DNA from: Streptantibioticus ferralitis
GTDB lineage: Bacteria > Actinomycetota > Actinomycetes > Streptomycetales > Streptomycetaceae
Length of the DNA stretch: 64,000 nt
Reading direction: 5' to 3'
NCBI RefSeq assembly: GCF_029223525.1
Contig: NZ_JARHTQ010000005.1
Coordinates: forward strand, 186,001 to 250,000
Position 1 is the stretch's first letter. The number at the start of each line of letters is the position of its first letter. Below are positions 33,529 to 50,026 of this stretch, piece after piece. Under the pieces are notes generated by a model. It was not told the DNA's origin. It made no database searches and worked only from the letters and a program-made list of their open reading frames with translations. The position numbers were made by a program, and so were the translations under genes.

Positions 33529-34557
33529 GTGATCGTGATCCAGCGACGTGTGGTGGTCGTGGTCTACTCCGGCGTGCAGGCGCTGGATGTCACCGGGCCC
33601 ATTGAAGTGTTCGACACGGTGAACCGCCGGTTAGCCGATCAGGGGGTCGGCTACCGCATCGAGTGCGTCTCCGCCGAGGCGCCCCTGGTGCGGACCTCCG
33701 CCGGGCTGGTGATCGAGGCCGCGCCGCTGGACGAGGGGGCGGGTCCCATCGACACCCTGCTGGTCCCCGGCGGCTGGGGCTTACGGGAGGCGTTGCGGGA
33801 TCGGGAGTTGATCTCGTGGATCGGCCAGGCCGCGGCCCGGTCGCGCCGGGTCGCCTCGGTGTGCGGTGGGGCCTTCCTGCTGGCCGAGGCGGGGCTGCTG
33901 GACGGTCGGCGGGCCACCACGCACTGGGCGTACTGCGAGCAGTTCGCCCGCCGCTATCCGCGGGTGACGGTCGACTCGGGGCCGATCTTCGTCTGGGACG
34001 GCCGCTATGTGACGTCCGCGGGAGTGTCCACCGGCATCGACATGGCCCTGGCCCTGGTGGAGGCCGACCACGGCGCCGCGGTGGCGCTGGAGACGGCCCG
34101 GTACCTGGTGCTGTTCTTCAAACGGCACGGCGGGCAGTCGCAGTTCAGCGCGGTGCTGGACGCGCAGTTGGCCGACCGGCTGCCGATCCGGGCCGCTCAG
34201 GAGTGGGTTCTGGGGAATCTCGAACACCCGCTGCCGGTAACGGAGTTGGCGCGGCGGGCCAGTATGAGCCCGCGCAACTTCGCCCGGGTGTTCCGCCGTG
34301 AGGTGGGGACGACGCCGGGCCAGTACGTCGAGCGCATGCGGATCGCGCGGGCCCGCGAGCTTCTGGAGACCACCGAGCTGCCCGTCAGCCATGTCGCCCG
34401 GCGCTGCGGATTCGCCGCCGCCGAGACGTTCCTGCGGTCGTTCAACCGCGCCGTGGGGCTCACCCCGGGCGAGTACCGGCAGCGCTTCCAGGTCCTGACG
34501 CCCGCGGGTGTCATCGTCGCGCCGGGCCACAGCGGCCATGCGGAGGTGGGCTTGTGA
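33529..34557 (+). CDS. AraC-family regulator with DJ-1/PfpI domain (two TTA codons)
   Basis: 342 residues. Residues about 1-175 are a class I amidotransferase-like sensor domain (VVVVVYSGVQALDVTGPIEV; ASVCGGAFLLAEAGLL with the elbow cysteine; HWAYCEQFARRYP), the rest a double HTH of AraC type (RRASMSPRNFARVFRREVG, then CGFAAAETFLRSFNRAVG). This GATase-AraC fusion is common in actinomycete pathway regulators. Codons 33631-33633 and 33781-33783 are TTA, rare in such genomes and read only by the bldA tRNA, so translation is probably tied to development. Start GTG 33529; a GTG two codons later is an alternative. The stop overlaps the start of the ThDP enzyme, so this regulator heads the first cluster operon. 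Confidence 0.88.
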   Translation: MIVIQRRVVVVVYSGVQALDVTGPIEVFDTVNRRLADQGVGYRIECVSAEAPLVRTSAGLVIEAAPLDEGAGPIDTLLVPGGWGLREALRDRELISWIGQAAARSRRVASVCGGAFLLAEAGLLDGRRATTHWAYCEQFARRYPRVTVDSGPIFVWDGRYVTSAGVSTGIDMALALVEADHGAAVALETARYLVLFFKRHGGQSQFSAVLDAQLADRLPIRAAQEWVLGNLEHPLPVTELARRASMSPRNFARVFRREVGTTPGQYVERMRIARARELLETTELPVSHVARRCGFAAAETFLRSFNRAVGLTPGEYRQRFQVLTPAGVIVAPGHSGHAEVGL

Positions 34558-36266
34558 CCGCGGCCGACCAGGTACGCCTGGTCGACTACCTGGCCGCGGA
34601 GTTGGGCCGAGCCGGGATGCGGTACGTCTTCGGTGTCGGCGGTGCGAACATCGAGGATCTGTACGACGCCGTGCACGGCACCTCGGGGGTGGTGCGTGGC
34701 GTGGTGGCGAAGCACGAGTTCTCCGCGGCGACCATGGCGGACGGCTACGCCCGCGCCACCGGCCGGATCGGCGTGGTCGCCGCCACGTCCGGCGGCGGGG
34801 CGATGAACCTGGTGCCGGGGCTGGCGGAGGCGTACGCCTCGCGTGTTCCGCTGCTGGCGCTGGTGGGGCAGCCGCCCACCGGGCTCGACGGGCGCGGGGC
34901 GTTCCAGGACTCCAGCGGCAAGGGCGGCTCCTTCGACGCGGCGGACGTCTTCGCGCCGGTGTCCCGGTTCTGTGCGCGGGTGACCGAACCGGAGGCGTTC
35001 CCTGGGCTGTTGGCGCGGGCGATCAGCGCGGCGCGCAGCGATCCCAAGGGCCCGGCGGTGCTGCTGCTGCCCAAGGACGCGCAGCAGGCGCTCCTCACGG
35101 CGCCCAGCACACGGGTGGCGGCACCGGAGCCCACGGCGCCGCGGCCGGATCCGTCGGCCCTGGATCGCGCGGTGCGGCTGCTGCGCGGCGCGAACCGCGT
35201 TCTGCTGATCGCCGGGGAGGGGGTGGCCGCGGCCGGTGCGCGGTCGGAGTTGGCCGAGCTGGCGGGGCGGTTGGCGGCGTGGGTGGCGGTCAGCCCGGAC
35301 GCCAAGGACGTGTTCGACAACCGCGACCCCCGGTTCGTCGGAGTGGCCGGGGTGATGGGACATCAGAACGTCGAGGACTGCCTGCGGCGGGCCGACGCCT
35401 GTGTGCTGGTCGGCACCCGGCTGCCGTTGATGGCACGCGGCGGTCTGGACCCCGCGTTGCTGGGCACCCCGGTGGTCTGCGTGGACCCGGAGCCGCCGTT
35501 CGTACCCGGTATCGCGCTGCCGGGGGACCCGCGCGCGACGCTGCGTACGCTCGTCGACCGGCTGGAGCGGCGGCCGCGGGTGCGACCGGCGCATGCCGGT
35601 CCGCGGCCCTTGACCGTGCCGCGGCTCGATGCGGCCGCCACGTCCTACGCCGATGCGCTGGCCGCGATCGGGGCGGCGCTGCCCGAGGACGCCCATGTCT
35701 TCGTGGACGCCGGGAACATCGGGGCCAGCGCCATCCATCTGCTGCCCGCGCCGCGCGACGGCCGCTTCGTGGTGGCGGTGGGCATGGGCGGCATGGGCTA
35801 CACCTTCGGTGCGGGCATCGGCGCGGCGCTCGCCACCGGACGCCGCACCTACGTACTGGCCGGGGACGGCGCGTTCTTCATGCACGGCATGGAGGTGCAC
35901 ACCGCGATCGAGTACGCCGCTCCGGTCACCTTCGTCATCCTCAACAACAACGCGCACGCCATGTGCGTGACCCGCGAGCAGTTGTTCCAGGGCGGCGCCC
36001 GCGCCGAGAACGTCTTCCGGCCGTCCGACATAGCCGCCGGCGTGGCCGCCATGTTCCCGGGCCTTGAGGTGACCCGGGCGCGATCCGCCCGCGAACTGCG
36101 CCAGGCACTGCTGTGCAGCAACACCAGTGCCGGTCCGGCCCTCGCCGCCATGGACTTCGACCACCGGGAAGTCCCCCCGTTCCTTCCCTTCCTGACCGCA
36201 GCTGGTCAGGATTCCGTCCACACCGAGGAGAGCACAGATGACCGCGGACCCCTCCACGTTGGCTGA
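34554..36266 (+). CDS. Acetolactate synthase-like thiamine diphosphate enzyme
   Basis: 570 residues with three-domain ThDP decarboxylase/carboligase layout. The catalytic glutamate is in VAKHEFSAATMADGYARATG; the middle domain spans about 190-320; the ThDP-Mg motif is GDGAFFMHGMEVHTAIEY followed by LNNNAHAM (GDG...NN). It is probably cytosolic and could catalyse acyloin or C-C bond formation from a 2-oxoacid, or decarboxylation. A distinct ilvB role is unlikely, because there is no ilvN neighbour and it sits in a cluster. The GTG start overlaps the AraC stop, and its own 3' end overlaps the SRPBCC gene by 29 bp. Confidence 0.85.
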   Translation: MTAADQVRLVDYLAAELGRAGMRYVFGVGGANIEDLYDAVHGTSGVVRGVVAKHEFSAATMADGYARATGRIGVVAATSGGGAMNLVPGLAEAYASRVPLLALVGQPPTGLDGRGAFQDSSGKGGSFDAADVFAPVSRFCARVTEPEAFPGLLARAISAARSDPKGPAVLLLPKDAQQALLTAPSTRVAAPEPTAPRPDPSALDRAVRLLRGANRVLLIAGEGVAAAGARSELAELAGRLAAWVAVSPDAKDVFDNRDPRFVGVAGVMGHQNVEDCLRRADACVLVGTRLPLMARGGLDPALLGTPVVCVDPEPPFVPGIALPGDPRATLRTLVDRLERRPRVRPAHAGPRPLTVPRLDAAATSYADALAAIGAALPEDAHVFVDAGNIGASAIHLLPAPRDGRFVVAVGMGGMGYTFGAGIGAALATGRRTYVLAGDGAFFMHGMEVHTAIEYAAPVTFVILNNNAHAMCVTREQLFQGGARAENVFRPSDIAAGVAAMFPGLEVTRARSARELRQALLCSNTSAGPALAAMDFDHREVPPFLPFLTAAGQDSVHTEESTDDRGPLHVG

Positions 36267-36891
36267 CATCCCCGGGCTGATCCGAGTGGAGAACACCAGC
36301 CCGCAGGAACTGGCCGCCCACTGCGCGCGGATGACCCAGGAGGCCTATCCGCACGAGCAGGTCTACGGGCGGTACTGCACCATCGAGGAGTACGTCGACT
36401 GCCCGCCGGAACAGGTCTACGACTACCTGCGCCAAGGACACCACCTGGAGGAATGGACCTGCAGCCTGCGGGACTTCGGGCCGACCGGGACCCCGGGGCT
36501 GTGGCTCGGCCGCGACCTGCTGGAGCCGGGCACCGGCATCTACTGCAAGGTGGTGGCCAACTCCGAGGCGATGACGGTGGATTACCACTGCGCCTGGGAC
36601 CAGGCCGAAACACTGTGGATGGTCTATCTGATGCGGGTGGTCCCGGCGTCACTGGTGCTCGGCAAGCCGGGCTCGGTCATCACCTGGACCAACTGCCGCC
36701 ATCCGTACTACGACGCCAACCCGTACCCGGAGCGGGCACCGCGCCCGGACCGGCGATGGGTGGGCGAGTACTGGGACCTGTTCTACGCCGGTCACACGGT
36801 GGAGATGCACAACCTCAAGGCGATCCTGGAACACCGCCATGGACACGGCCTTCCGGTCAGCGTGCCGCCGGTCCGGGCGGTGGCCCGGTGA
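36238..36891 (+). CDS. SRPBCC/START-like fold protein
   Basis: 217 residues. The pattern YVDCPPEQVYDYLRQGHHLE near residue 50 followed by LEEWTCSLRDFGPTG and later beta strands resembles the SRPBCC (Bet v1/polyketide cyclase-like) superfamily, whose members bind hydrophobic ligands and sometimes act as cyclases, aromatases or hydroxylases. No catalytic motif is decisive. GAGGAGAGCACAG before the ATG gives a strong ribosome site. It sits between the ThDP enzyme and ketosynthase III, overlapping both, so it likely acts on or carries the acyl intermediate made by them. Assignment is by fold pattern only. Confidence 0.55.
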   Translation: MTADPSTLADIPGLIRVENTSPQELAAHCARMTQEAYPHEQVYGRYCTIEEYVDCPPEQVYDYLRQGHHLEEWTCSLRDFGPTGTPGLWLGRDLLEPGTGIYCKVVANSEAMTVDYHCAWDQAETLWMVYLMRVVPASLVLGKPGSVITWTNCRHPYYDANPYPERAPRPDRRWVGEYWDLFYAGHTVEMHNLKAILEHRHGHGLPVSVPPVRAVAR

Positions 36892-37904
36892 CGTCGGTCA
36901 GCCTCACCGATGTGTCGGGCTACCTGCCGGGCGAGCCGGTGCCCGCCGAGTTCTACACCGGCTACCCCGGTGCGGAGGACAAGCTGCGGGACAGCCCGAT
37001 GTTCAAGGTTCCGCCGTTCCGGCACCATGTTGCCGCAGCCGAGACCAACGTCGACATGATCGAGCGTGCGGTCCAGCCGCTGATCGAACGGCACGGCCGG
37101 AACGCGATCCGCGGCGTGGACGTACTGCTGGTGCACAGCCAGCTGCCGGACGTGCCGTTCGTGGGCGCGGGCACCGAAGTGGCCCGCCGGCTCGGGATGG
37201 CCCCCGAGTGGCTGGTCGACGTGGCCAACGCCGGGTGCGCCTCGTTCGTCCATATGCTGGGGCTGGCCCGGCAGATCCTCACCACCACGACGGCGAAGAC
37301 CGCCCTGATCTGCAACGCGCAGAGCGCCGCGGGCCAGTTGTTCACCCAGTCCGAGGTGCGCGGGCTCGCCCAGGCCGCGATTCCGGGCGACGGCTGCGGC
37401 GTGGGATACGTCACCGCCTCAGGCCCGAGTCCCGTGCTGGGCGTCCGGGTCCGGCACATCGCCGAGTACGCGGGTGACATGACGATGGTGCGCGACGACG
37501 GCCGCCGGTACTGGGAGCCGGGCGAGGCACAGCTGCGGATCGGCTTCACCGAGACCGGGGTCAGCAAGGTGCTGGACCGTGGCAACCGGCTGGTCCCCGA
37601 AGTGGTCACGGAACTGTGCCGACAACTCGGCAGGGACACCGCGGACATCGACACGCTGGTCACCAACCAGCCCAACAGGATGTTCCTGCGCAACTGGCGG
37701 GACGCGTTGAAGCTGCCGCCCGAGCGCCATCCGGACACCTTCGACCGCTGCGGCAACCTCTTCGGCGCGGCCATCCCGATCACGTTGGACCACGCCGTCC
37801 GCTCGGACGGGATCAGCGACGGCGCGCTGGTCGTCCTCGGCGGCTTCGCGCACGCTGGGGACTTCGCCGGGGCGGCGGCCATCGAGTGGCACACCGGCGG
37901 ATAG
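36888..37904 (+). CDS. Ketosynthase III-like enzyme 1 (altered active site)
   Basis: 338 residues of the beta-ketoacyl-ACP synthase III family. Cys117 lies in VANAGCASFVHML, and the C-terminal Asn290 in FDRCGNLFGAAIP. The position normally held by the catalytic His of the (H)QAN motif reads TNQPN (Asn260). A C-N-N triad would probably not support the usual decarboxylative condensation in the standard way, so the enzyme may use a different acyl transfer, or a non-decarboxylative chemistry with the ThDP enzyme product. GTGA overlap with the SRPBCC stop. It closes the first cluster operon. Confidence 0.85.
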   Translation: MTSVSLTDVSGYLPGEPVPAEFYTGYPGAEDKLRDSPMFKVPPFRHHVAAAETNVDMIERAVQPLIERHGRNAIRGVDVLLVHSQLPDVPFVGAGTEVARRLGMAPEWLVDVANAGCASFVHMLGLARQILTTTTAKTALICNAQSAAGQLFTQSEVRGLAQAAIPGDGCGVGYVTASGPSPVLGVRVRHIAEYAGDMTMVRDDGRRYWEPGEAQLRIGFTETGVSKVLDRGNRLVPEVVTELCRQLGRDTADIDTLVTNQPNRMFLRNWRDALKLPPERHPDTFDRCGNLFGAAIPITLDHAVRSDGISDGALVVLGGFAHAGDFAGAAAIEWHTGG

Positions 37905-37975: not shown

Positions 37976-38019
37976 GCGACCCGTCGATGTTCGGCGGGCC
38001 ATGGCGCAAAGGAGCACAG

Positions 38020-39348
38020 ATGTCGGTACCCGCGCACATCGCCTCGGTACGGGCGATCACCTCCGCCACCGCCAACGACGCGCAGGGCCAGTCGGACGTG
38101 ATACCCATGCCTCGTGCCCGGCCGTCGGACGGGCATGAGACGGTGGTCCCGGCCCTGGCCGAGATGCTGATCCGGCAGGCCCCGCAACTCATCGAGCAGC
38201 TCATGGAGTTGGCCGCGAGCCGGGATGTCGAGCACTTCCAGCAGTTGTCCGCGGCCGACATCCGCCGCTCGCTGCGCGAGCATGTGCTGGGCTTCCTGCG
38301 GTTCCTCGCGGACAAGCCCACGGCGGACGCCGATCCGCTCACCGTGCCCATGTCCTGGGGCCGGTACCGTGCCCAGGAGGGGGTGCCTCTGGAGTCCATG
38401 CTCCGCGTCCACCGGCTGGCCGCGCGGTTACTGTGGGAGAAACTCTTCGACGGGGCCCGGGCCAGGTCACCGGAGGTGCTGCAACGGCTCCTCGACGAGA
38501 GCGGACCGGTGTGGGACGTACTGGACAGCTACTCGCTGGCGCTCGTCGAGGGGTACCGCTCGGCGGAGTCGGACGCCCGCCGCCAGGACGCGGCACGCAG
38601 GGACGCGCTGTTCGACGCACTGATCGAGGGGCGCGGCGTCGAGCCCGCGGTCGCCGCGGAGGCACGGGTCGCGCTGGGCCTGCCGACCCGCGGCCGGTTC
38701 GTGGTCGTCGCACTGGACGCGGACACCGGCGGCTCGTCCCGGACGCTGTGCTCCGCCCTGCCCGCGCACGCCGTGCAGGCCGTCTGGCGGCTGCGTTCCG
38801 ACCGGGAGATCGGCGTACTGGAGTTGGGGCGCACCCCGCTGCGGCGGTTGGTCGACTGGCTCTCCGTCGATCCCGGGCACCGGGTGGGGATCTCCGGCGA
38901 GGTCGACAGCCTCGCCGACATCGCCACCGCCTACCACTTCGCCGAGACCGCGCTGCAGACACTGCGCTACGGGACCACCGGGGTGGCGGCCTTCGACGAC
39001 CGGCTGTTGGAGGCCTTCGTGGTGACCAGTCCGCACGTCGCCCAGCGGCTCGCCCGGCGCGCCTTCGGCCGCCTGCTGGACTGCCCGCCGGATGAGCGGG
39101 ACGTACTGCTGACCACGCTGGACGCCTGGTTCCGCTGCGGATGTTCGGCCGCCAAGGCCGCCGAGCGGCTGCACTGCCATCGCAACACCGTGCTCAACCG
39201 GCTGCGCAGGGTGGAGGCGCTCACCGGCAGCAGCCTGGACGACGACCGCTATCAACTCGCCTGCCAGATGGCGCTGGTGGCGGTGCACACACTGCCGCTG
39301 ACCACACCCGCGCGGACTTCGGCGCAGACTTCGGCGGAGACCGAATAG
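38020..39348 (+). CDS. PucR-family transcriptional regulator (one TTA codon)
   Basis: 442 residues. The C-terminal HTH of PucR/CdaR type is visible in CSAAKAAERLHCHRNTVLNR followed by LRRVEALTG, preceded by a GGDEF-like degenerate middle domain (about 220-330, GVAAFDDRLLEAFVVTSP). The N-terminal half is helical (PQLIEQLMELAASRDVEHFQ), like the RsbR-type N-terminal domain of several actinomycete PucR proteins. AAAGGAGCACAG precedes the ATG at 38020. Codon 38428-38430 is TTA, so bldA dependence is likely, as for the AraC gene. It lies between the two cluster operons, with a perfect palindrome upstream, and probably controls the second operon. Confidence 0.88.
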   Translation: MSVPAHIASVRAITSATANDAQGQSDVIPMPRARPSDGHETVVPALAEMLIRQAPQLIEQLMELAASRDVEHFQQLSAADIRRSLREHVLGFLRFLADKPTADADPLTVPMSWGRYRAQEGVPLESMLRVHRLAARLLWEKLFDGARARSPEVLQRLLDESGPVWDVLDSYSLALVEGYRSAESDARRQDAARRDALFDALIEGRGVEPAVAAEARVALGLPTRGRFVVVALDADTGGSSRTLCSALPAHAVQAVWRLRSDREIGVLELGRTPLRRLVDWLSVDPGHRVGISGEVDSLADIATAYHFAETALQTLRYGTTGVAAFDDRLLEAFVVTSPHVAQRLARRAFGRLLDCPPDERDVLLTTLDAWFRCGCSAAKAAERLHCHRNTVLNRLRRVEALTGSSLDDDRYQLACQMALVAVHTLPLTTPARTSAQTSAETE

Positions 39349-39537: not shown

Positions 39538-39625
39538 AGCCTATACCGATGGTCCCGTCCGCGATGGAGCAGACGGTGCGACCGCGGCAGGCACATGGTT
39601 CGTTACGGGGGGCTGGGAGTTGTCA

Positions 39626-40612
39626 GTGACGGATGTTTTCGTCGACTCGTTCGTCTACTCGCTCGGCGAACGCAAGATACACGTCAATGAAACGGCGGCG
39701 GCCGGCCGGTTGATCTCTTCCGCGCAGGACCTTGAGTCCGCGGGCTTCCGCTGGCATCACGTGTGCGAACCCGGGACCACCGCCTACGACTTGGCGAAGG
39801 CGGTCACCGGAGAGCTCGCCGACTCCGATCGGCTGGGCGACGTGGACGCCATCGTCTACGCCACCTGTCTGCCGCTGAACGGCAACGCCGGTGACCCGCG
39901 GGAGTGGGAGCGCACCAGGGACGTCAAGTACCTGATGGACTTCCCCGCCAGTCGGCTGCAGGCCGACTTCGGGCTGCACAACGCCGTCGTCATCGGTCTC
40001 AACCAGCAGGCCTGCACGGCCATGTTGGGCTCCGTCCGGCTGGCGCAGGCGATGCTCCAGGTGGAACGTGACTGGAACCGGGTGCTGTGTGTGACGGCCG
40101 ACCGGTTCCCCGAGGGGGCCAAGTACGAGCAGGCGTACAACCTGATCTCGGACGGCGCCGCCGCATGTGTGGTCAGCCGCCAGCCCGCCGCCTTCCGACT
40201 GGTGACGGTGCATCAGATAACCAATGGCGGGCTCGGCCAGGCCGGTGACGACGAGACGGTGGGCAGCTACTTCGCCTACACCCACCGACTGGTCCGGGAG
40301 ACCCTGGAACGTGCCGGGCTGACCGCCGCCGACCTCGACTGGGTGGTCACCCAGAACACCAATGACAAGGCCTGGCAGATCCTGGCCCGGCTGCTGGGGG
40401 TGGGCTTCGAGAAGGTTTTCTTCTCGTCCATGCCCGACGTCGGCCATGTCATCTCCGCCGACAACATGGTCAACCTCGCGGAGCTGCTCGCCACCGGGCA
40501 GGTGTGCCCGGGCCAGCGCATCGCCCTCATCATGGCCGGCTTCGGGTTGAACTGGCAGTGCGTGATCCTCGAGGCCACCGAAGCGGTGGCCACCGCCGCT
40601 GCCCGGGACTGA
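39626..40612 (+). CDS. Ketosynthase III-like enzyme 2 (rearranged active site)
   Basis: 328 residues, thiolase fold of the KAS III/HMG-CoA synthase group. Cys130 is in GLNQQACTAMLGSV. The HQAN position reads VTQNTN (Gln243 where His is expected), and the GNTSAAS position reads DVGHVISADN (His274 where Asn is expected). So both remaining triad positions differ from FabH, and from ketosynthase 1. Such sets occur in acyltransferase-like members that transfer acyl groups to amines, alcohols or carrier-bound substrates instead of condensing malonyl-ACP. GTG 39626 is preferred because GGGAG is well placed before it; TTG 39620 is the alternative. First gene of the long second operon. Confidence 0.82.
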   Translation: MTDVFVDSFVYSLGERKIHVNETAAAGRLISSAQDLESAGFRWHHVCEPGTTAYDLAKAVTGELADSDRLGDVDAIVYATCLPLNGNAGDPREWERTRDVKYLMDFPASRLQADFGLHNAVVIGLNQQACTAMLGSVRLAQAMLQVERDWNRVLCVTADRFPEGAKYEQAYNLISDGAAACVVSRQPAAFRLVTVHQITNGGLGQAGDDETVGSYFAYTHRLVRETLERAGLTAADLDWVVTQNTNDKAWQILARLLGVGFEKVFFSSMPDVGHVISADNMVNLAELLATGQVCPGQRIALIMAGFGLNWQCVILEATEAVATAAARD

Positions 40613-40659
40613 CCCCGGGACCCCGGACACCCGCCACCCCTCCATCGTATGAGGACCGC

Positions 40660-41580
40660 TTGAGTACTTCGAACGTCCCGAAAGCCCAGCTGGCCGAGGC
40701 GCTCGCCTCGCTCGGCCCCACGGTCAGCAGGCTCAGCCATCTGTCACAGCGCTCATACCAGAATCCGTACACCGAACTGCAGGTATGGCCGGCGGAAGTC
40801 CGGCCGGAGCAGGAGTGGTTCAGCAGCCCCGAGTATCTGAGCCTGTACGGCACGGAGTACTGGGAGCGGTTGGACGAGCCCACTCGGTGCCGCCTGGCCT
40901 TCCATGAGGCCGCCAACTTCTACAGCCTCAACATCCACGGTGAGAAGTCCCTGATGCAGGGCCTGGCCGAACGGCTGTACCGCAAGGACCTGTTGGATGT
41001 GTCCGAGTACCTGCACCACTTCCTGGACGAGGAGAACAAGCACAGCATCTACTTCGGTGGCTTCTGCACCCGGTACTCACGGGTGTACCGCAGCCGCCAG
41101 TTCTCCTTCGAGGAGTCCCATGACTCCCGGCCGCGCGACATCGAGGACTTCCTCTTCTTCGCCAAGACCATGGTCTTCGAGGAGATCGTGGACAACTACA
41201 ACTGGGTGCAGTCCAGGGACTCCCGGCTGCACCCGGTGGCCCGGTTCATCAACCACAACCACCACTTCGAGGAGTCGCGCCACCTGATCTTCGGCCGCCG
41301 TCTGGTGACGGCGCTGTGGGAGGCGTGCGCCCCGTCCTGGGGCGAGGACACGGTGGCGGAGCTGCGCGGCTATCTGCGGCAGTACTTCACCGCCTCCTGG
41401 CGCGAGTACTACAACCCCGACGTCTACGCGGACGCCGGACTCGAAGATCCGTGGGAGATCGCCGAACGAGCATGGTCCGCACCGGCGCAGCGGGAACACC
41501 GCCGCGAGGTGTCGAGGAAGGTCGTCGGTTTTCTCATCTCGACAGGCATTCTCGACAAGGAGCCCGCCGATGCGTTCTGA
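40660..41580 (+). CDS. AurF-like non-haem di-iron oxygenase
   Basis: 306 residues. Di-iron ligand motifs resemble the AurF/CmlI (p-aminobenzoate N-oxygenase) family: a helix with HEAANFYSLNIHGEKSLM, then FLDEENKHSIYFGGF (ExxH), MVFEEIVDNYN (Glu) and NHNHHFEESRHLIFGRR (HxxxExxH). Characterised members oxidise amines to hydroxylamine, nitroso or nitro groups; others hydroxylate carbon. TTG 40660 is chosen because GAGGA lies four bases upstream and homology begins there. The stop overlaps the carrier-protein start region. Together with the amino-acid carrier pair it suggests oxidation of a carrier-bound amino acid or of an amine made from it; this is inference. Confidence 0.85.
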   Translation: MSTSNVPKAQLAEALASLGPTVSRLSHLSQRSYQNPYTELQVWPAEVRPEQEWFSSPEYLSLYGTEYWERLDEPTRCRLAFHEAANFYSLNIHGEKSLMQGLAERLYRKDLLDVSEYLHHFLDEENKHSIYFGGFCTRYSRVYRSRQFSFEESHDSRPRDIEDFLFFAKTMVFEEIVDNYNWVQSRDSRLHPVARFINHNHHFEESRHLIFGRRLVTALWEACAPSWGEDTVAELRGYLRQYFTASWREYYNPDVYADAGLEDPWEIAERAWSAPAQREHRREVSRKVVGFLISTGILDKEPADAF

Positions 41581-42762: not shown

Positions 42763-43862
42763 GGGGAACCACGCTCATCACGGGCGCGGACGGCTATCTG
42801 GGGCGTCGGCTCACCGCCGCGCTGCTCGCCGACGGCGACGACGATCTCATCCTCGCCGTGCGCGCCAAGGACAACGCCGAACTGACCGCCAAGCAGGACC
42901 GGTTGGCCCGGCAACTCGGTCAGGACGCGGTGGGCCGGACGAGAGTCACCGCGGCCGACCTCTCCTTGGACGACGCGCTGCTGGACATCGACACCCGGGC
43001 GATCACCCGTATCGTGCACGCGGCCGCCGTCACCCGTTTCAACGTCGAGCGCGACATCGCGCAGCGCGTCAACGTGGACGGCACGGTGCGGCTGCGGGCG
43101 TTCGCGGCGCGCTGCGACAATCTGCAGCGGCTGGCCATGCTGTCCACCCTGTACGCGGCGGGCCGCCGACGCGGCGACATCCACGAGGAGCGGTTCGACG
43201 ACGCCGGTTTCGTCAACCACTACGAGTGGTCGAAGTGGGCCGCCGAGGACCATGTACTGGACGCCGTCGGCGACCTTCCGGTCTCCGTACTGCGGCTGCC
43301 GACGCTCATCGCCGACGACGACAGCGGCCAGGTCACCCAGTACAACGCCTTTCACAACACCCTGAAGCTCTTCTACTACGGGCTGCTCTCGCTGCTACCG
43401 GGGGACGGCACGACACCGCTGAGCCTGGCCACGGCGACGTTCACCACCTCGGCGGTCACCAGGCTGCTCGATCCCGCGATCGCCGGCGGCATCTACCACA
43501 TCTGCCCCGACCCGGCCGACACGGCGACGCTGGACCAGCTCATCGACATCGCCTTCACGGTCTTCGAGCGTGACGCGGGCTTCCGGCGGCGCGGGTTGAT
43601 CCGCCCGCTCCCCTGCGACCAGGAGAGCTTCGAGGATCTGCTGGACGCCGCCGACCTGCTGCGCGGCGGCCCGATCCATCAGTCGCTCTCCTCGGTCTCG
43701 CCGTTCGCCCACCAGCTGTACCTACCGAAGACCTTCCGCAACGACGCACTGCGGGCCGCCTGGCCCGGCTACGCGGCCCCCGACCCGATCGCGCTGGCGG
43801 AAACCACCTGCATACGGCTCATCGAATCAAAGTGGGGCCGCCGGACCCAGGAGACACCGTGA
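42759..43862 (+). CDS. Thioester reductase-like extended SDR protein
   Basis: 367 residues. The N-terminal dinucleotide motif TLITGADGYLGRRLTAALL and the catalytic NHYEWSKWAAE (YxxxK) identify an extended short-chain dehydrogenase; the segment IVHAAAVTRFNVERDIAQR and the later VLRLPTLIADDDSG resemble the NAD-binding-4 domain of thioester reductases (NRPS/PKS R domains, carboxylic acid reductases). It may release a carrier-bound acyl or aminoacyl chain as aldehyde or alcohol. Epimerase-like function cannot be excluded. It starts within the ligase 3' end (ATGA) and ends overlapping the ferritin-like gene. Confidence 0.78.
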   Translation: MRGTTLITGADGYLGRRLTAALLADGDDDLILAVRAKDNAELTAKQDRLARQLGQDAVGRTRVTAADLSLDDALLDIDTRAITRIVHAAAVTRFNVERDIAQRVNVDGTVRLRAFAARCDNLQRLAMLSTLYAAGRRRGDIHEERFDDAGFVNHYEWSKWAAEDHVLDAVGDLPVSVLRLPTLIADDDSGQVTQYNAFHNTLKLFYYGLLSLLPGDGTTPLSLATATFTTSAVTRLLDPAIAGGIYHICPDPADTATLDQLIDIAFTVFERDAGFRRRGLIRPLPCDQESFEDLLDAADLLRGGPIHQSLSSVSPFAHQLYLPKTFRNDALRAAWPGYAAPDPIALAETTCIRLIESKWGRRTQETP

Positions 43863-44446
43863 CGCTTTCCGAGAACGACCTGTGGCTGCTCAGCTTCTAC
43901 CGCTCCTCCGAGATCAACGGCGCCCTGTTCTTCGGCCGGGTCGCCCGTACCCTGCGCGGCGGCCCGCTGCAGGCCGATGTGACCCACCACTTCGCCGACG
44001 AGGCCAACCACGCCAAGTACTGGACGCGCTGCATCGAGGACCTCGGCTACAACGCCGAGAAGCTGTCCGGCGCCTACCAGGACCAGTACCTCGAAGCCGT
44101 CGGACTGCCCGCCAACCTCATGGAGGTCATGGCGATCACCCAGGTCTTCGAGAAGCGGGTGATCGGCCAGTACCACCGCCACCTGCGGGCGCCGGACACC
44201 CATCCGCGGGTGCGGCAGACCATTGAGACGATCATGGAAGACGAGCGCTGGCATGTGAAGTACGTACGCGACGCGCTGCAGGAGATGGCGCAGAAGTACG
44301 GCCAGGAGCTGATCGACGACACGCTCGCCCGCTTCACCGCGGCCGACGAGGAGGTCTACGCCAAGACGCTTGCCGAGTACGGCGAACGCATCGTCTTCCT
44401 CGGCGACGGACCTGTCGACCTCAGCGTTCCCGCCGCCGAAGTATGA
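43859..44446 (+). CDS. Ferritin-like di-iron protein
   Basis: 195 residues forming a four-helix ferritin-like bundle. Metal-ligand candidates: Glu in FYRSSEINGALFFG, ExxH in FADEANHAKYW, Glu in ITQVFEKRVIGQY and ExxH in IMEDERWHVKYVRDAL. That is a complete ExxH...ExxH di-iron set. It is more like small di-iron oxygenases (for example MiaE-like or amine-modifying enzymes) than iron-storage ferritin. A second di-iron enzyme next to the AurF-like one suggests two oxidation steps on the same intermediate. GTG 43859 overlaps the reductase stop (GTGA), and its stop overlaps the PPTase start. Confidence 0.8.
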   Translation: MTLSENDLWLLSFYRSSEINGALFFGRVARTLRGGPLQADVTHHFADEANHAKYWTRCIEDLGYNAEKLSGAYQDQYLEAVGLPANLMEVMAITQVFEKRVIGQYHRHLRAPDTHPRVRQTIETIMEDERWHVKYVRDALQEMAQKYGQELIDDTLARFTAADEEVYAKTLAEYGERIVFLGDGPVDLSVPAAEV

Positions 44447-45318
44447 CCGTGCGGGTGCTCGCCGTGTGGACGCGTCAACCGCTGGTCGTGGACGCGCTGA
44501 CCTCCCGGGAGCGGGAGCGGCTCGCCGCCCTGCCGCAGCGGGTACGGCGGCAGTGGCTGATCTCGCGGCACGCCCTCCGGCTGCTGCTGGGCGTACTCGG
44601 GCTGCCGCTCGACACGACCCGGTACGCCTTTCCGCACCGCCGGTTGTCGCTGACGCACATCGAGGGGGCGGCGGTGGCGGCGGGCGCGGTGCGCGACACA
44701 CGGCAGTTGGCGGGCGTCGGGGTCGACCTCGAAACCGACCGGGAGGCGCGGGTGGACACCACTCGCTTCTTCCTGGACGAGCGCGAGCGGTCCTGGCTCG
44801 CCTCGCTCCCCGACACGGCGAGGGCCACCGAGCAGTTGCGGCTGTGGACGGTCAAGGAGGCGCTGTTCAAGGCCGATCCGGACAACCGGCACACCGTGCT
44901 GCGCGACTACACCACCCTCGACGCGGCGGCGCACCGCGGCCGCGCCCGCACGCGGCAGCACCGCGAAGCGGTCTTCGGCTATGCGAGCACCCGGCTGCGC
45001 GACGCGCAGTTGTCCATTGCCGCGGCGTTCCACGGCGAGACCCGCACACCACAATCCATCGCACCAGGAAGAGAGACACCCGTGCCATCCGTGATCACGT
45101 TCGACGAGGTCGCCGACCGCATCAGCTCCACGCTGTCCATACCGGTGGAGAAGCTGACCCCGCAGACCACCCTGCGGGAACTCGCCGCCGACAGCTTCCT
45201 GCTGGTCGAGATGGCGGTCGACCTGCAGGAGGAGTTCGACACCATCTTCACCCAGAACGAGCTGCGTGAGATCACCACGCTCGGCGAACTCGCCGGGCTG
45301 GTGGGCGCGAAGGTCTGA
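44443..45318 (+). CDS. Phosphopantetheinyl transferase fused to an acyl-carrier domain
   Basis: 291 residues. Residues 1 to about 205 are a Sfp-type PPTase: SRHALRLLLGVLG, GVGVDLETDREAR (Asp95, Glu97) and LWTVKEALFKADP (Trp135, Lys138, Glu139). Residues about 215-291 are a normal carrier domain with TPQTTLRELAADSFLLVEM (Ser251 in the DSF motif). No stop separates them. An in-frame GTG at 45082, preceded by AGGAAGAGAGA, could also start a freestanding carrier of about 78 residues inside the gene. So the cluster has a second carrier and its own activating enzyme. The PPTase probably primes this domain and the small carrier. ATGA overlap with the ferritin-like gene. Confidence 0.85.
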   Translation: MTVRVLAVWTRQPLVVDALTSRERERLAALPQRVRRQWLISRHALRLLLGVLGLPLDTTRYAFPHRRLSLTHIEGAAVAAGAVRDTRQLAGVGVDLETDREARVDTTRFFLDERERSWLASLPDTARATEQLRLWTVKEALFKADPDNRHTVLRDYTTLDAAAHRGRARTRQHREAVFGYASTRLRDAQLSIAAAFHGETRTPQSIAPGRETPVPSVITFDEVADRISSTLSIPVEKLTPQTTLRELAADSFLLVEMAVDLQEEFDTIFTQNELREITTLGELAGLVGAKV

Positions 45319-45408: not shown

Positions 45409-47703
45409 ATGTCGGAACGTCTGATCCGCGTGATCGAAAGATTCCGCTGGCCGCTGCTGGCCGTATGGCTGGTGGCGCTGGTCGCCGCCGGGGTGGCCGC
45501 GCTGCCCATCGCCGACCGGCTGAGCGGCGGCGGCTGGTACGTACCCGGCTCCGGCTCGCAGAAGGCGATCACCGCCACCCAGTCGGGTTTCACCGACCGC
45601 GGCGCCAGCGATCTGACCCTGGTGGTACGGGACGAGCGCAACGCGGCCGGAACCCCGGCGTTCGACCAGCGGGTGGGCCAGGCCATGCGGCAGGTCATCG
45701 GCGACAAGCGGCTGGAGGCCAAGGGGAGTTACGGCTGGCTCAGCCTGTCGCCGACGTCCCGCGGGCAGTTCGTCGGCAAGGACCGGCACACCGCCACCAC
45801 CCTCGTCGGGCTGAAACTGGACGACGGTACGGCCCGTCGCGTCCTACCGGATGTGCAGAAGGACATCGACCACCGCTTCGCCCCGCAGGGGCTACGGGTT
45901 TCGCTGGTCAGCGCCGGAACGCTGTGGGGAGAGATCAACACACTCAGCCAGAAGGGCCTGCAGACCGCGGAACTCATCACGTTCCCGCTGCTGTTGGTGA
46001 TTCTGCTGCTGCTGTACCGGGGCATCGCCTCGGCGGTGGTCTCCTTCGTGGTCTCCGCGACGGCTATCGTCTTCACCCTCGGGCTGATGTCCGTACTCGC
46101 CCAGCACTTCGAGTTGTCCATCTTCGTGGAGAACGCGGCCACCATGATCGGCCTGGGGGTGAGCGTCGACTACTCGCTGTTCGTCATCTCCCGCTACACC
46201 GACGAACTCTCCCGCGGGCGGGATCGTACGGCCGCGCTCGCCGCGACGTTGCGCACCAGCGGCAAGACCGTCACCTTCTCCGGGCTCATCGTCATCCTGG
46301 CCATGTCCAGCCTGTTCCTGGTGGACCTCAACGTCATCCAGTCGATCGCGCTGGGCATCCTCGTGGTGGTGGCGTTCGCGGTGCTGGCCGCCGTCCTCGT
46401 GCTGCCGCTGGTCCTGCTACTGCTGGGAGATCGGATCCTGTGGGGCCGACTGCCCATGCAGCGGCGGACGCCCGAGGAGCAGGGGCGCCGCTGGCGCAGC
46501 GTGGCACGGCAGATCATGCGCCGGCCCGTGCTGTTCCTGGTGGTGGCGATCGCCGCCATGCTGGCGCTCGCCTCGCCGTCACTGTCGTTGCGCACCTTCA
46601 CCCCGGACGCGCGTATCGTGCCCGAGTCGTCTCCGGTCCGCCAGGGATACGACGCGATGCGCGAGCAGTTCGGGCCGGGCACCGCCTCGCCCAACGAGGT
46701 CGTCATCACCTCGGACACCCCGCTGAACACCTCGTCGGACAGCGGGCGCATCCTGGCGCTACGGGACCAGTTGGCCAGGCTCCCGCACGTCACCGGCGTC
46801 AACTCGCCGGTGGACGCGCTACGGGCGGTCAGCCCCGGTCGCCCGTTCGCCGCGCTGGACAGCGCGGCCTTCAACCGGCTGCCCGGCGACGCCCGGGTCA
46901 CCATCGACCACTTCGTATCCGCCGACCGACGCACCATCGTGCTGGAGGTCATCGCGGACGACTACGCCTCCAGCGCCCCGTCCCGCGACCTCGTCACCGC
47001 CATGCGGTCCACCGTGGACACCCTCGGTGCGCCGGGGCTGCACGCCGTGGTGGGCGGCGAGACCGCGGAGGGCATTGACGCCAACTCCGCGATCTCGGAA
47101 CGGCTGCCCGCGGTGGTCGCGGTCATGCTGGTGGTGATCTACCTTCTGCTGCTGATCACCTTCCGGTCCGTACTACTGCCGATCAAGGCGATCCTGATCA
47201 ACCTGCTGTCACTCGGGGCCACTTACGGCGCCCTGGTGCTGGTGTTCCAACACAAGTCCGGCGCCGGCCTCTTCGGCTTCCAGGAGTTCGGCTATCTGCA
47301 GAACTTCGTTCCCATCCTGCTGCTGGCGATCCTGTTCAGCCTGAGCACCGACTACGAGGTGTTCCTGCTGCACCGCATCCGCGAGGAGTACGACAGCGGG
47401 GCGGACAACACCACTAGCGTGGCCAACGGCATGGCCCGTACCGCGCCGTTGATCTCCGGTGCTGCCGTGCTGATGGTCGCGGTCTTCGGCGCCTTCGCCT
47501 TCACCGGCATCATGCCCATCCAGCAGCTCGGGTTCGGCCTCGCCATCGCCATCGCGCTGGACGCCACCATCATCCGGCTGGTCGTGGTGCCCGCCGCCAT
47601 GCAGCTGATGGGCCGCTGGAACTGGTGGCTGCCCGGTCGCCCCGACCGCCCCTCCCCCGTCGTCAGGACCCAAGAGTCCGAAGAGTCCGTCGTCCGGTCG
47701 TAA
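45409..47703 (+). CDS. MMPL-family transporter
   Basis: 764 residues with the RND/MMPL layout: one N-terminal helix (PLLAVWLVALVAAGVAALPI), a large extracytoplasmic domain, six helices, then a second repeat of the same plan. Family blocks GLGVSVDYSLFVISRYTDEL and LFSLSTDYEVFLLHRIREEY are in the paired halves. Such proteins export lipids, siderophores and other amphipathic products by proton motive force. Placed after the assembly genes, it is likely the exporter of the cluster product. The start ATG has GGAGCTAGGT upstream; 90 bp separate it from the PPTase-carrier gene. Confidence 0.9.
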   Translation: MSERLIRVIERFRWPLLAVWLVALVAAGVAALPIADRLSGGGWYVPGSGSQKAITATQSGFTDRGASDLTLVVRDERNAAGTPAFDQRVGQAMRQVIGDKRLEAKGSYGWLSLSPTSRGQFVGKDRHTATTLVGLKLDDGTARRVLPDVQKDIDHRFAPQGLRVSLVSAGTLWGEINTLSQKGLQTAELITFPLLLVILLLLYRGIASAVVSFVVSATAIVFTLGLMSVLAQHFELSIFVENAATMIGLGVSVDYSLFVISRYTDELSRGRDRTAALAATLRTSGKTVTFSGLIVILAMSSLFLVDLNVIQSIALGILVVVAFAVLAAVLVLPLVLLLLGDRILWGRLPMQRRTPEEQGRRWRSVARQIMRRPVLFLVVAIAAMLALASPSLSLRTFTPDARIVPESSPVRQGYDAMREQFGPGTASPNEVVITSDTPLNTSSDSGRILALRDQLARLPHVTGVNSPVDALRAVSPGRPFAALDSAAFNRLPGDARVTIDHFVSADRRTIVLEVIADDYASSAPSRDLVTAMRSTVDTLGAPGLHAVVGGETAEGIDANSAISERLPAVVAVMLVVIYLLLLITFRSVLLPIKAILINLLSLGATYGALVLVFQHKSGAGLFGFQEFGYLQNFVPILLLAILFSLSTDYEVFLLHRIREEYDSGADNTTSVANGMARTAPLISGAAVLMVAVFGAFAFTGIMPIQQLGFGLAIAIALDATIIRLVVVPAAMQLMGRWNWWLPGRPDRPSPVVRTQESEESVVRS

Positions 47704-47727
47704 CCGCCAGAAAGGATCCACCCTCAC

Positions 47728-48351
47728 GTGGATGACTCCGCCCTTCTCCTGCTGCTGCTGAACTTCATCTTCATCGGTGCCCTGCCACGGCTCTTCTTCC
47801 GCTCGGACGGCACCTTCAATCTGAAGTGGTGGCTGACCGCCGCGCCGTTCTTCCTGTGCCCGCTCTACGTCGCGGCGGCGCTCGCCGTCGGCTGGCAGCC
47901 GTTCGTCTCGGGCAGCCTGCTCACCGGACTGACGCTCGTCGCCGTGCTGTTGAGCGTGGGTTCCATCGCCCTGATCTTCATGACGCTGGGCACCCACCGC
48001 ATTCCGCTGGCGCTGTGGCACCAGGAGAACGACGCACCCCGGCACATCGTGACGTACGGCGCCTACCGGCGGATCCGGCACCCCTTCTACTCCTCGTTCC
48101 TGCTGGCCTTCCTGGCGAGCCTGTTCGCCTTCCCGCACTGGGGCACGCTGGTGTTCGCCGTCTACGGAGTGGTGTCCCTGAACACCACTGCGGCGCGCGA
48201 GGAACGGCGTCTGAGCTCCTCCGAGTTCGGCGCGGAGTACCGCGGCTACATCACGCAGACCGGCCGTTTCTTCCCCCGCCTGGGCAGGATTCCGGCCGCG
48301 GCGCAGGCCGCTCAGCCGGTGGAGAACGCCGCTCAGGTCATCGAGCGATAG
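47728..48351 (+). CDS. ICMT/PEMT-like integral membrane protein
   Basis: 207 residues with about five hydrophobic helices. The end carries the isoprenylcysteine carboxyl methyltransferase-like signature: YGAYRRIRHPFYSSFLLAF, then AREERRLSSSEFGAEYRGY. Members of this group methylate lipids or peptides with SAM at the membrane, but many are uncharacterised and some act in steroid or fatty acid metabolism. It may methylate the cluster product. Start GTG 47728 follows AAAGG with 13 bases between; an alternative is not apparent. It is 24 bp after the MMPL gene. Confidence 0.75.
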   Translation: MDDSALLLLLLNFIFIGALPRLFFRSDGTFNLKWWLTAAPFFLCPLYVAAALAVGWQPFVSGSLLTGLTLVAVLLSVGSIALIFMTLGTHRIPLALWHQENDAPRHIVTYGAYRRIRHPFYSSFLLAFLASLFAFPHWGTLVFAVYGVVSLNTTAAREERRLSSSEFGAEYRGYITQTGRFFPRLGRIPAAAQAAQPVENAAQVIER

Positions 48352-48364
48352 GACGGTTCCCGAC

Positions 48365-50026
48365 GTGTCACGTCTCATTTCCTGGCTGACGCAGCCTCAT
48401 CCGGAGCGCGGGGTGCACTTCGCCACCGACTCGGGCGACTGGGAGTTCGTGCCGTACCGGGAACTGGCCGCCTCGGCCCGCCGGGTCGCCGCCGAGATGG
48501 CGGCGGCCGGGGTGCGCCCCGGTGACGTGGTCTGCCTGATCCTGCCCAGTGGACGCGACTGCCTGGCCGCGCTGTTCGGTGCCTGGGCGGCCGGGGCCAC
48601 CGTCTCCCCACTGCTCCCGCCGTCCTTCCAGTCCGAGGGCGAGTACGTCGAGTACGTCTCCGGAATCCTCCGGCAGGCCGAGCCCGCCCTGGTGGTCGTC
48701 GCCGAGGAGTTCAGGTCGCTGGCGGCCGACGCGATGGTCCGGGCGGGCCGGTCGGACGCGCCGTGGATTCCCCGTGAGGGAACCATCGAGGCCCCCATCC
48801 CGGACAGCGCCCGGACCGGGATCGCGCTACTGCAGTTCACCTCGGGCTCCACCGGCCGGCCACGCGGTGTCCGGGTGTCGTGGGACAACCTCGCCGCCAA
48901 CTACGCACTGCAAAGCCGCATGATCGGCTGGCGGGACGGGGACGGCTTCGCCTCCTGGCTGCCGCTCCACCACGACATGGGTCTGATCGGCTGTGTGCTG
49001 TTCCCCTTCGCCTCGCAGAGCCCGCTGTGGCTGATGCGGCCAGAACAGTTCATCCGCGATCCGGGGCGCTGGCTGGCCTGTTTCGCCCCGGGCAAGGCGG
49101 CGCACTCGGCCTCGCCGTCGTTCGCCTTCGCCTATGCGGCGCGCAGGGTCCGGCCGCAGCGGCTCGCCGAGTTGGACCTGTCCGGCTGGCGCAGTGTGGT
49201 GGTCGGTGCCGAGGTGGTCGACCCGGCGGCGCTGGACACGTTCGCCCGGTTCGCCGAACCGGTGGGCTTCGCCCTGGGCACCTATCTGCCCTCGTACGGA
49301 CTGGCCGAGAACACGCTGGCGGTCACCGGCGCCGAGGCGCCGATCGTGGTGGTACGCCCCGAGTGGTCCTCGATGCGGCTTGGCGAGCCCGTGCGGATCG
49401 AGGCGGCGGGCAAACTGGGCGACCAGCCCATCGAGCCGGGCTCGGGTTGGCTCGTCGGCCATGGCGCCCCGCACCACGAGGACGGCGTGGGCCTACGGAT
49501 CCTCGACGAGGAGGGGCAGCCGCTACCGGACGGCCACCTCGGCGAGGTCGCCGTCACCGGCACCTCGGTGACCCAGGGGTACCACGGCGGCCGGGACGGG
49601 GGGTCCACCCGGTTCGTCGACGGTGAACTGCGCACCGGGGACGCGGGGTTCGTGCACGACGGAGAGCTGTTCGTGCTCGGCCGGATGGGCGACAGCCTCA
49701 AGCTGCGCGGACGCAGTGTGTACGTCGACGACCTTGACGCGAAGGTCGCGGCGGCCGCCGGGCTCGACAAGGACCGCACGGCCGTGGTGGCCGTCAACGA
49801 CCACGGACGCGCCGGGTTGGCCGTCTTCGTGGAGGCGGCCCCCGGCCCCTGGACGGACGCGGTGACCGAGATGCTGCGCGGCGAGCTCGGGCCGGATCCC
49901 TCACTGACCCTCGTCGCCGGGCGACGCGGCCTGCTCAAGCGGACCACCAGTGGAAAGCTGCGGCGACGGCACATGTGGCAGCTTCTGCAGGAGGGCAGGT
50001 TGAAGTCGGTGACCGTCATCCACTAG
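48365..50026 (+). CDS. Fatty acyl-AMP ligase-type adenylation enzyme
   Basis: 553 residues of the ANL superfamily, FAAL-like. Adenylate motif LQFTSGSTGRPRGVRVSWDN, FAAL-typical WLPLHHDMGLIGCVLFP, and catalytic lysine in KRTTSGKLRRRHMWQ. It should activate a fatty acid as acyl-adenylate and pass it to a carrier protein, probably the carrier domain fused with the PPTase. No signal peptide; cytosolic. GTG 48365 starts 13 bp after the ICMT-like gene. The 3' end overlaps the convergent symporter by 11 bp, which marks the right edge of the cluster. Confidence 0.87.
   Translation: MSRLISWLTQPHPERGVHFATDSGDWEFVPYRELAASARRVAAEMAAAGVRPGDVVCLILPSGRDCLAALFGAWAAGATVSPLLPPSFQSEGEYVEYVSGILRQAEPALVVVAEEFRSLAADAMVRAGRSDAPWIPREGTIEAPIPDSARTGIALLQFTSGSTGRPRGVRVSWDNLAANYALQSRMIGWRDGDGFASWLPLHHDMGLIGCVLFPFASQSPLWLMRPEQFIRDPGRWLACFAPGKAAHSASPSFAFAYAARRVRPQRLAELDLSGWRSVVVGAEVVDPAALDTFARFAEPVGFALGTYLPSYGLAENTLAVTGAEAPIVVVRPEWSSMRLGEPVRIEAAGKLGDQPIEPGSGWLVGHGAPHHEDGVGLRILDEEGQPLPDGHLGEVAVTGTSVTQGYHGGRDGGSTRFVDGELRTGDAGFVHDGELFVLGRMGDSLKLRGRSVYVDDLDAKVAAAAGLDKDRTAVVAVNDHGRAGLAVFVEAAPGPWTDAVTEMLRGELGPDPSLTLVAGRRGLLKRTTSGKLRRRHMWQLLQEGRLKSVTVIH

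Follow-up and report, generated by a model that had tools for sequence, protein, structure and literature searches.

A predicted pathway for an N-oxidised lipo-amino acid beside a carbazole cassette in Streptantibioticus ferralitis

Introduction

The actinomycete Streptantibioticus ferralitis carries a dense block of biosynthetic genes at 33.5-50 kb of a 64,000-nucleotide stretch of its 8.8 Mb genome (contig NZ_JARHTQ010000005.1, positions 186,001 to 250,000; this whole stretch is referred to as the window). A preliminary description of the DNA had read the entire block as one pathway in which a fatty acid and an amino acid are joined and the nitrogen is oxidised. The question that this locus raises is whether the block is a single pathway, and what it is likely to make. 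The analysis reported here resolves it into two adjacent systems, a carbazole assembly cassette (system A, 34554-37904) and a lipid and amino acid block (system B, 39620-50026), hereafter called the core. On balance we favour the view that the core, with the carbazole system as its neighbour, encodes a pathway, so far undescribed, that is predicted from its genes to make an N-oxidised lipo-amino acid.

All the families that had been named for the block are present. Pfam or NCBIfam matches support the fatty acyl-AMP ligase (FAAL), two KAS III-like enzymes, a thiamine diphosphate (ThDP) enzyme, the ligase, a short-chain dehydrogenase/reductase (SDR), the AurF-like and ferritin-like proteins, a fusion of a phosphopantetheinyl transferase (PPTase) with an acyl carrier protein (ACP), and the MMPL exporter, and the small carrier is recognised by its conserved Ser41. 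The earlier gene list had passed over a CqsB2-like protein, an isoprenylcysteine-methyltransferase (ICMT)-like protein and two regulators, of the PucR and FtrA types (Table 1).

A carbazole cassette separate from the core

The middle gene of system A encodes a protein that aligns with the carbazole synthase CqsB2 (PDB 6ipv) at an E value of 9e-51, with 86 of 195 aligned residues identical (44%). Five catalytic residues of CqsB2 are named in a review of carbazole biosynthesis (PMC7466098, represented here, like the other papers given by PMC number, by part of its text); Y144, Y172, H206 and E209 are identical in the window protein, and the fifth, E105, is replaced by Asp. The gene stands between those for the ThDP enzyme and one of the KAS III-like enzymes (KAS III-a), the arrangement expected of a CqsB3/CqsB2/CqsB1 or NzsH/I/J set. 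The best PDB chains for the ThDP enzyme are those of BbmA (8xod/8x3x, E ~4e-62), and a literature search for BbmA/CsmA brought up no paper apparently on either. KAS III-a is best matched by 3gwa (E 1e-14) and retains the Cys and Asn, with the His of the HQAN motif changed to Asn. The ThDP enzyme is probably the counterpart of CqsB3/NzsH and KAS III-a that of CqsB1/NzsJ. System A would thus run from an acyloin step by the ThDP enzyme through condensation by KAS III-a to ring closure by the CqsB2-type synthase, yielding a carbazole-type skeleton.

The same three kinds of enzyme lie side by side in the carquinostatin and neocarazostatin clusters as CqsB1-B3 and NzsJ-I-H, and the trio also occurs in Streptomyces cattleya, according to the portion of the review at hand (PMC7466098). 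The window differs from those clusters in that no Trp aminotransferase (cf. CqsB7) and no prenyltransferase was found among the 40 window ORFs scanned with Pfam, which are a part of all its ORFs; an aminotransferase may be encoded at another site in the genome.

The separateness of systems A and B was established by computation across 394 Streptomycetaceae genomes. A CqsB2-like gene (E <= 1e-50) is present in 39 of them, a figure counted by hand as 44 rows minus five with E > 1e-4. The ferritin-like gene of the core occurs at 63% identity or more in 10 genomes and with any match in 13, the other three matches being fragments (G218) or weak (G229, G276). The two genes are linked in only three genomes, all of the window's genus, and one further genome (G054) holds both on different contigs. 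At three loci unlinked to the core that were read out of the 36 unlinked genomes (L217-L219), the ThDP-CqsB2-KAS III arrangement is kept in each. Seen from the core, the cassette accompanies two of 18 core loci from named genomes (L120 and L121, both of the window's genus); in the other 16 nothing matched the ThDP enzyme, the CqsB2-like protein or KAS III-a at E 1e-3 in the flanks scanned, which reached up to ~10 kb per side and far less in L133 and L136. The ThDP enzyme and KAS III-a are best assigned to carbazole assembly, because a CqsB2 homologue stands between them, the cassette is found without the core, and most core loci lack the cassette. The reading of all 33.5-50 kb as one pathway is therefore not supported, and the proposed joining of a fatty acid to an oxidised amino acid is retained for 39620-50026 and withdrawn for 34554-37904.

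Predicted amino acid loading and N-oxidation

The 18 named core loci were obtained by scanning a collection of named genomes from the ferritin-like protein, and the residue checks on core proteins cover the window together with all named loci in which the gene in question is present. Three of the earlier residue alignments, that of AurF included, drew on 14, 13 and 12 of 17 gene-holding named loci, and the residue check was repeated with all of them.

The ligase aligns over residues 58-294 with Bll0957 (PDB 3mey, E 4e-30), an amino acid:[carrier protein] ligase with which it has in common the catalytic core, the absence of a tRNA-binding domain and an adjoining carrier gene. Its C128, E156 and C269 align with the Cys/Glu/Cys positions that we take to be the zinc ligands of Bll0957, and are present in all 18 sequences from the window and named loci as well as in 17/17 rows of an alignment that mixes core loci with other module loci. 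The predicted carrier has no Pfam or NCBIfam match, and its Ser41 is invariant wherever the carrier is found, in the window and 17 named loci (18/18).

The AurF-type protein scores 119 bits against a PF11583 cut-off of 29.6, as computed on a longer ORF than the one starting at the TTG at 40660, which was picked from the start of a homologue. Numbered on ORF 40627-41580, its seven ligands E94, E136, H139, E185, H212, E216 and H219 are intact in 18/18 sequences (window and 17 loci) and in 17/17 rows of a separate alignment. Six metal ligands and a seventh His are typical of N-oxygenases (PMC12154687). N-oxidation is the most likely role of this protein in the core, probably to the hydroxylamine level. 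The same genome encodes three further AurF homologues on two other contigs, two of them on opposite strands and ~0.4 kb apart.

A ligase-AurF-carrier module beyond the core

The pairing of these genes extends well beyond the core. Profiles were run on 117 fetched loci, three of them without a ligase, and neighbours were counted within 3 kb on the same strand. Ligases of at least 300 bits have an AurF homologue in 76 of 86 cases and a carrier in 83 of 86; for ligases of 100-300 bits the figures are 1/28 and 14/28. These figures describe a sample and not a census, because the loci were taken mostly by rank and some were themselves rows of the profiles. Within the genus of G025, 111 of 392 genomes encode a member of the ligase family (E <= 1e-40). 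Many genomes also hold ligase loci of a weaker class, which lack a nearby AurF and have a KAS III-like gene at a distance of a few kb (e.g. L071, L072, L075, L079, L083, L091).

Predicted acyl transfer, release and modification

The second KAS III-type protein (KAS III-b) has C132, H276 and D281 in 18/18 sequences. The His position of the HQAN motif is held by Thr (10), Pro (7) or Ala (1), and the His/Asn condensing pair is missing from all 18; the pattern is that of an acyltransferase, with the Cys retained, the Asn changed to His and an Asp five residues on. The triad positions align both with ChlB3 and with FabH enzymes, and a Cys-His-Asp triad characterises acyltransferases of the CerJ/DpsC type. 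These residues argue against decarboxylative condensation and for acyl transfer.

The free-standing thioester reductase matches TIGR01746 (1e-24). G9/G12/G15, Y155 and K159 are present in each of the 18 rows long enough to include them; the L136 sequence is truncated. The ferritin-like protein has E27, E57, H60, E107, E138 and H141 in 19/19 sequences (window and 18 named loci) and in 20/20 rows of a separate alignment, with Ile in the position where N-oxygenases have their extra His. Its profile found only designed proteins in the PDB (best E 9e-4). Foldseek with its predicted model (mean confidence, pLDDT, 86.8) placed aldehyde-deformylating oxygenases (ADO) first (best E 4e-4), and VIA-align superimposed the model on an ADO over 184 residues with Z 19.2 and a root-mean-square deviation (rmsd) of 2.8. 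The ICMT-like protein has 41 invariant residues in 16 aligned rows.

Conservation and shared history of the core

KAS III-b, AurF, the carrier, the ligase, the reductase and the ferritin-like protein are encoded in this order in 17 of the 18 named loci; the exception, L136, lies on a contig that starts within the reductase gene. The reductase and ferritin-like genes are present in 18/18, adjacent in 12 and separated by one PPTase gene in six. Matches to the window proteins were counted for the accessory genes, and gave 16/18 for the ICMT-like protein, 15/18 for the AMP ligase and 18/18 for a PPTase or ACP, the last being weak in L131, where Pfam places the PPTase in a separate gene. Some missing genes are explained by contig ends (L130, L133, L136). 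An MMPL gene adjoins the core also in L135 and L137.

The actinobacterial hosts comprise seven Streptomyces/Streptantibioticus relatives (83-97% identity), S. bohaiensis, Mangrovihabitans, Mycobacterium simulans, a Nocardia metagenome-assembled genome (MAG) and Micromonospora. The distant hosts are MAGs called Melainabacteria, Woeseiaceae, Proteobacteria (three contigs, two of them from one MAG) and Marinimicrobia. In the last of these (L137) the PPTase and ACP are separate genes that flank the ferritin-like gene, followed by MMPL, and the AMP ligase and ICMT-like genes stand in front. The core recurs as a block across other genera and phyla and is for that reason a real unit, far beyond chance. 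Pairwise identities of seven core proteins correlate with Spearman coefficients of 0.79-0.94 (120-153 pairs), as expected of proteins that are inherited together.

Several variants of the core occur. Two loci (L042 and L043, genomes G120 and G090) carry two ferritin-like copies, with neighbours that by eye resemble a P450 and a type I polyketide synthase (PKS). In L040 (genome G078) the run from KAS through AurF, carrier, ligase and reductase to the ferritin-like gene is accompanied by a FAAL match only from residue 223 on and by no adjacent PPTase-ACP, MMPL or ICMT match, and this core is apparently decaying. In Mycobacterium simulans (L129) a condensation-domain protein follows the core, and the MMPL match has 30% identity.

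Proposed pathway

The gene families, the intact metal-binding, serine and nucleophile residues, the loss of the condensing residues and the conserved order are observed; from them we infer the substrates, the order of N-oxidation and acylation, the role of the ferritin-like protein, the site of methylation and the product. The ligase would activate a free alpha-amino acid, its amine held on the zinc site, and load it onto the 86-aa carrier, where the AurF-type enzyme would oxidise its nitrogen, the hydroxylamine being the most likely level. The FAAL would load a fatty acid onto the PPTase-fused ACP, and KAS III-b would transfer the acyl group to the nitrogen, forming a hydroxamate without decarboxylative condensation. 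The thioester reductase would then free the chain as an aldehyde on which the ferritin-like enzyme may act, and the membrane methyltransferase would cap the product before its export by MMPL. The three activities that had been proposed for the block thus have well-preserved candidates in the core: FAAL and ACP for fatty acyl activation, the ligase with its intact zinc site and the carrier for amino acid loading, and AurF with all seven ligands for N-oxidation.

Hydroxamate or oxime chemistry is the best-precedented outcome for AurF-like enzymes acting on alpha-amino acids (PMC10616846, PMC11659414), azoxy, nitro and hydroxylamine products being indistinguishable by sequence. A more far-reaching version of the proposal, which we regard as doubtful, is that after AurF oxidation on the carrier, acylation by the non-condensing KAS III (as hydroxamate or through a C-C bond) and reduction to the aldehyde, an ADO-like di-iron enzyme strips the former carboxyl carbon as formate. 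The result would be an N-oxidised lipid that is no longer amino acid-like, made by a pathway found across phyla.

Weighing the evidence

Several observations weigh against the pathway favoured here, or against the role given to one of its proteins. The ligase reaches 134 bits against the NCBIfam NF005479 equivalog cut-off of 357, in which it differs from Bll0957, and it is accordingly a relative of the Bll0957 type and not the same enzyme. The reductase, at 87 bits, is below the TIGR01746 cut-off of 213, and the methyltransferase has 59 bits against 160 for NF040696. No PDB chain is matched at E 0.01 by the window AurF or by its clade profile, so that this protein is distant from the AurF/CmlI enzymes of solved structure. 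The KAS III-b model (pLDDT 89.8) places ChlB3 first at Z 34.3, with NatS, FabH, PqsBC and others within 1 Z unit, and since the best PDB rows are tied in this way the first place of ChlB3 is not proof. For the ferritin-like model, phenylacetyl-CoA monooxygenase subunits come close behind ADO in Foldseek (E 1e-3), an Arthrobacter protein of unknown function ties with ADO (Z 19.2), bacterioferritin follows ~2 Z units lower (Z 17.1 over 144 residues), and the sequence match to ADO has an E value of only 0.11. The modelled fold being closest to ADO is therefore suggestive and, for a four-helix bundle, not decisive. Every non-actinobacterial copy of the core lies on a MAG contig. The AMP-ligase matches are 21-28% identical to the window FAAL in the MAGs L132, L134, L135 and L137, so that the ligase may not be a FAAL in these four, and 30-31% identical in L127 and L128.

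Four other explanations bear on the same genes. In the window and its two genus mates alike, the core directly follows the cassette, which could mean that FAAL and ACP supply the carbazole KAS III with a long acyl chain and that Streptantibioticus builds one alkyl-carbazole or lipid hybrid from both systems; carbazoquinocin biosynthesis is said to use an acyl-ACP without a beta-hydroxy group in the section of the review consulted (PMC7466098). The distribution speaks against such a hybrid, with no cassette match in the flanks scanned at 16 named core loci, 39 CqsB2-like genes of which three are linked to the ferritin-like gene, both genes unlinked in G054 and an intact trio at three loci apart from the core, and we consider it improbable. 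The retained Cys of KAS III-b and its lack of the His/Asn pair of decarboxylating KAS III enzymes would also suit a route in which AurF carries the carrier-bound amino acid to a nitro or oxime stage that acidifies the alpha carbon, and KAS III-b adds the fatty acyl group there through a C-C bond, without malonyl-type decarboxylation. Its residue pattern also aligns, however, with the acyltransferase ChlB3, KAS III acyltransferases of that class make esters, and to our knowledge the cases that start from a carrier-bound aliphatic alpha-amino acid end at the hydroxylamine or oxime. AurF and CmlI do take aryl amines to nitro groups (PMC12154687), and we give this route only a small chance.

The nearness of the ferritin-like fold to ADO, with entries for the complex of ADO and acyl-ACP reductase (AAR) among the matches, and the closeness of its gene to that of the reductase (adjacent in 12/18 loci, one PPTase gene away in 6/18) would fit a pair that acts on the fatty chain as cyanobacterial AAR/ADO does and releases a hydrocarbon, with the amino acid branch making a separate product. 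The reductase is, though, a homologue of the thioester-reductase domain that releases chains from nonribosomal peptide synthetases (NRPSs), its gene lies downstream of the carrier and ligase genes, and the co-inheritance of seven core proteins suggests one product; the chance of a hydrocarbon branch seems slim. The presence of VlmB among the structural matches of the ferritin-like protein (8wvr, rank 46, E 0.037) suggests a valanimycin-like azoxy compound, or another product with an N-N bond, for which the seryl-tRNA-synthetase-like ligase would be the seryl donor. This is very unlikely, since the ligase belongs to the carrier-loading type and has a carrier of its own, unlike a tRNA synthetase, and since the family matches in the cluster include no aminotransferase or amine-forming decarboxylase, in a comparison that did not search for the valanimycin proteins by sequence. 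The N-oxidised lipo-amino acid thus remains the reading that we prefer for the core.

Relation to known systems

In cyanobacteria, too, an acyl-thioester reductase is found near a ferritin-like di-iron enzyme, and ADO has the nearest fold to the core ferritin-like protein. The core differs in that its substrate is probably an aminoacyl thioester and its ferritin-like protein is a candidate ADO only, and the cyanobacterial AAR belongs to a different reductase family. The nearest known logic to that of the core is found in the lipothrenin and fragin/valdiazen pathways.

Fragin carries a fatty acyl group too, and the outcome for PvfB is reportedly an oxime. In the fragin/valdiazen (ham) and pvf systems the amino acid is tethered to a carrier of an NRPS that ends in a reductase domain, and an AurF-like enzyme oxidises it there, as when HamC oxidises valine tethered to HamD (PMC11659414). 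A single NRPS there does the work of the separate tRNA-synthetase-like ligase, carrier and reductase of the core, with a condensation domain in place of a KAS III, and the text at hand names no ADO-like enzyme (PMC11659414).

The lipothrenin (lit) cluster of Streptomyces aureus LU18118 has a KAS III, a FAAL, an ACP and the AurF-like LitN, whose loss abolishes N-hydroxylation of an N-acyl-threonine; its product is an N-hydroxylated N-acyl amino acid, the same kind of compound as is proposed for the core (PMC10616846). It also encodes the 85-aa LitK and the essential 311-aa LitL, both of unknown function, which are sized like the carrier and ligase of the core (PMC10616846); as the comparison is one of size, homology between the two pairs is offered as a lead. 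No thioester reductase, ICMT-like methyltransferase or 200-aa ferritin-like gene appears in the lit gene table as available, which has instead a 326-aa ribonucleotide-reductase-like LitE, and the GMC, acyl-CoA dehydrogenase, GDSL and ThiF genes of lit have no equivalent among the Pfam matches of the ORFs scanned at 33.4-50.0 kb (PMC10616846). The lit authors favour oxidation of the amide, and the KAS III LitB determines the chain type and is not essential (PMC10616846), which counsels caution in calling KAS III-b amide-forming from a gene list alone. Among the 117 module loci no AurF gene lies within 4 kb downstream of the ligase, so that no lit-like locus turned up; in L082 an AurF gene lies ~5 kb downstream.

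The nocuolin A cluster was considered as a match and rejected, since its description, as far as available, is of a PKS/NRPS with different genes. Its gene content sets the core apart from the lit, ham and nocuolin clusters, as those are described in the parts of the papers at hand. A review of FAAL enzymes (PMC11837247) makes no mention of di-iron enzymes, thioester reductases, KAS III, N-oxygenases or hydroxamates. Literature searches aimed at the core gene set found no cluster that has it, MIBiG and subscription papers lying beyond their scope, and this agrees with the preliminary description, which knew of no characterised cluster with the set.

Gene layout of the locus

Several neighbouring genes of the locus overlap by a few bases (Table 1). 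The gene for the FtrA-like regulator runs over the start of the ThDP gene, and KAS III-a has a GTG start that overlaps the stop of the CqsB2-like gene. Upstream, the neighbours scanned encode a trehalase, a solute-binding protein, a VWA protein and a PknG-like kinase, and downstream a monocarboxylate symporter and sigma factors; these flanking ORFs, a subset of those in the window, look like ordinary chromosomal genes by their sequence matches. The window contains no tRNA gene, and searches of PHROGs gave no match for the ferritin-like protein, AurF or the carrier.

Table 1 Features of the two systems and adjoining regulators (window coordinates)
Feature	Position	Strand	System	Evidence
FtrA/AraC-type regulator with DJ-1/PfpI domain	33454..34557	+	next to A	PF01965, PF12833; NF006902 FtrA 241 bits
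ThDP-dependent acetolactate-synthase-like enzyme	34554..36266	+	A	Pfam TPP domains
CqsB2-like Bet v1/SRPBCC carbazole synthase, 217 aa	36238..36891	+	A	PDB 6ipv match
KAS III-like enzyme a	36888..37904	+	A	ACP_syn_III_C 7e-20
PucR/CdaR-type regulator	37987..39348	+		HTH_30 2e-20
KAS III-type acyltransferase b (predicted)	39620..40612	+	core	Pfam
AurF-type di-iron N-oxygenase (predicted)	40660..41580	+	core	PF11583
Small carrier protein (predicted, amino acid), 86 aa	41570..41830	+	core	Ser41
tRNA-synthetase-like amino acid:carrier ligase without tRNA-binding domain, 311 aa	41827..42762	+	core	PDB 3mey
Free-standing thioester reductase (SDR)	42759..43862	+	core	NAD_binding_4 3.5e-29
Ferritin-like di-iron protein	43832..44446	+	core	metal-ligand residues, model fold
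PPTase-ACP fusion	44443..45318	+	core	ACPS and PP-binding domains
MMPL/RND-type exporter	45409..47703	+	core-associated	MMPL 7e-90
ICMT-like membrane methyltransferase	47728..48351	+	core	NF040696 6e-16, below cut-off
FAAL	48365..50026	+	core	AMP-binding 2e-47, PRK09192 FAAL 9e-87

Implications

The core is a single block with a linked history that reaches from actinobacteria to MAGs of distant phyla, and no described product was found for it. Its ferritin-like protein may perform ADO-like di-iron chemistry on an aldehyde within an amino acid pathway, and its carrier-loading ligase offers a possible role for the unexplained essential LitL of lipothrenin biosynthesis. The wider survey adds a rule, namely that one class of tRNA-synthetase-like carrier ligases usually adjoins an AurF homologue and a small carrier. 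With AurF beside 76 and a carrier beside 83 of the 86 ligases of this class, many Streptomyces clusters that are as yet unread probably make N-oxidised amino acid units.

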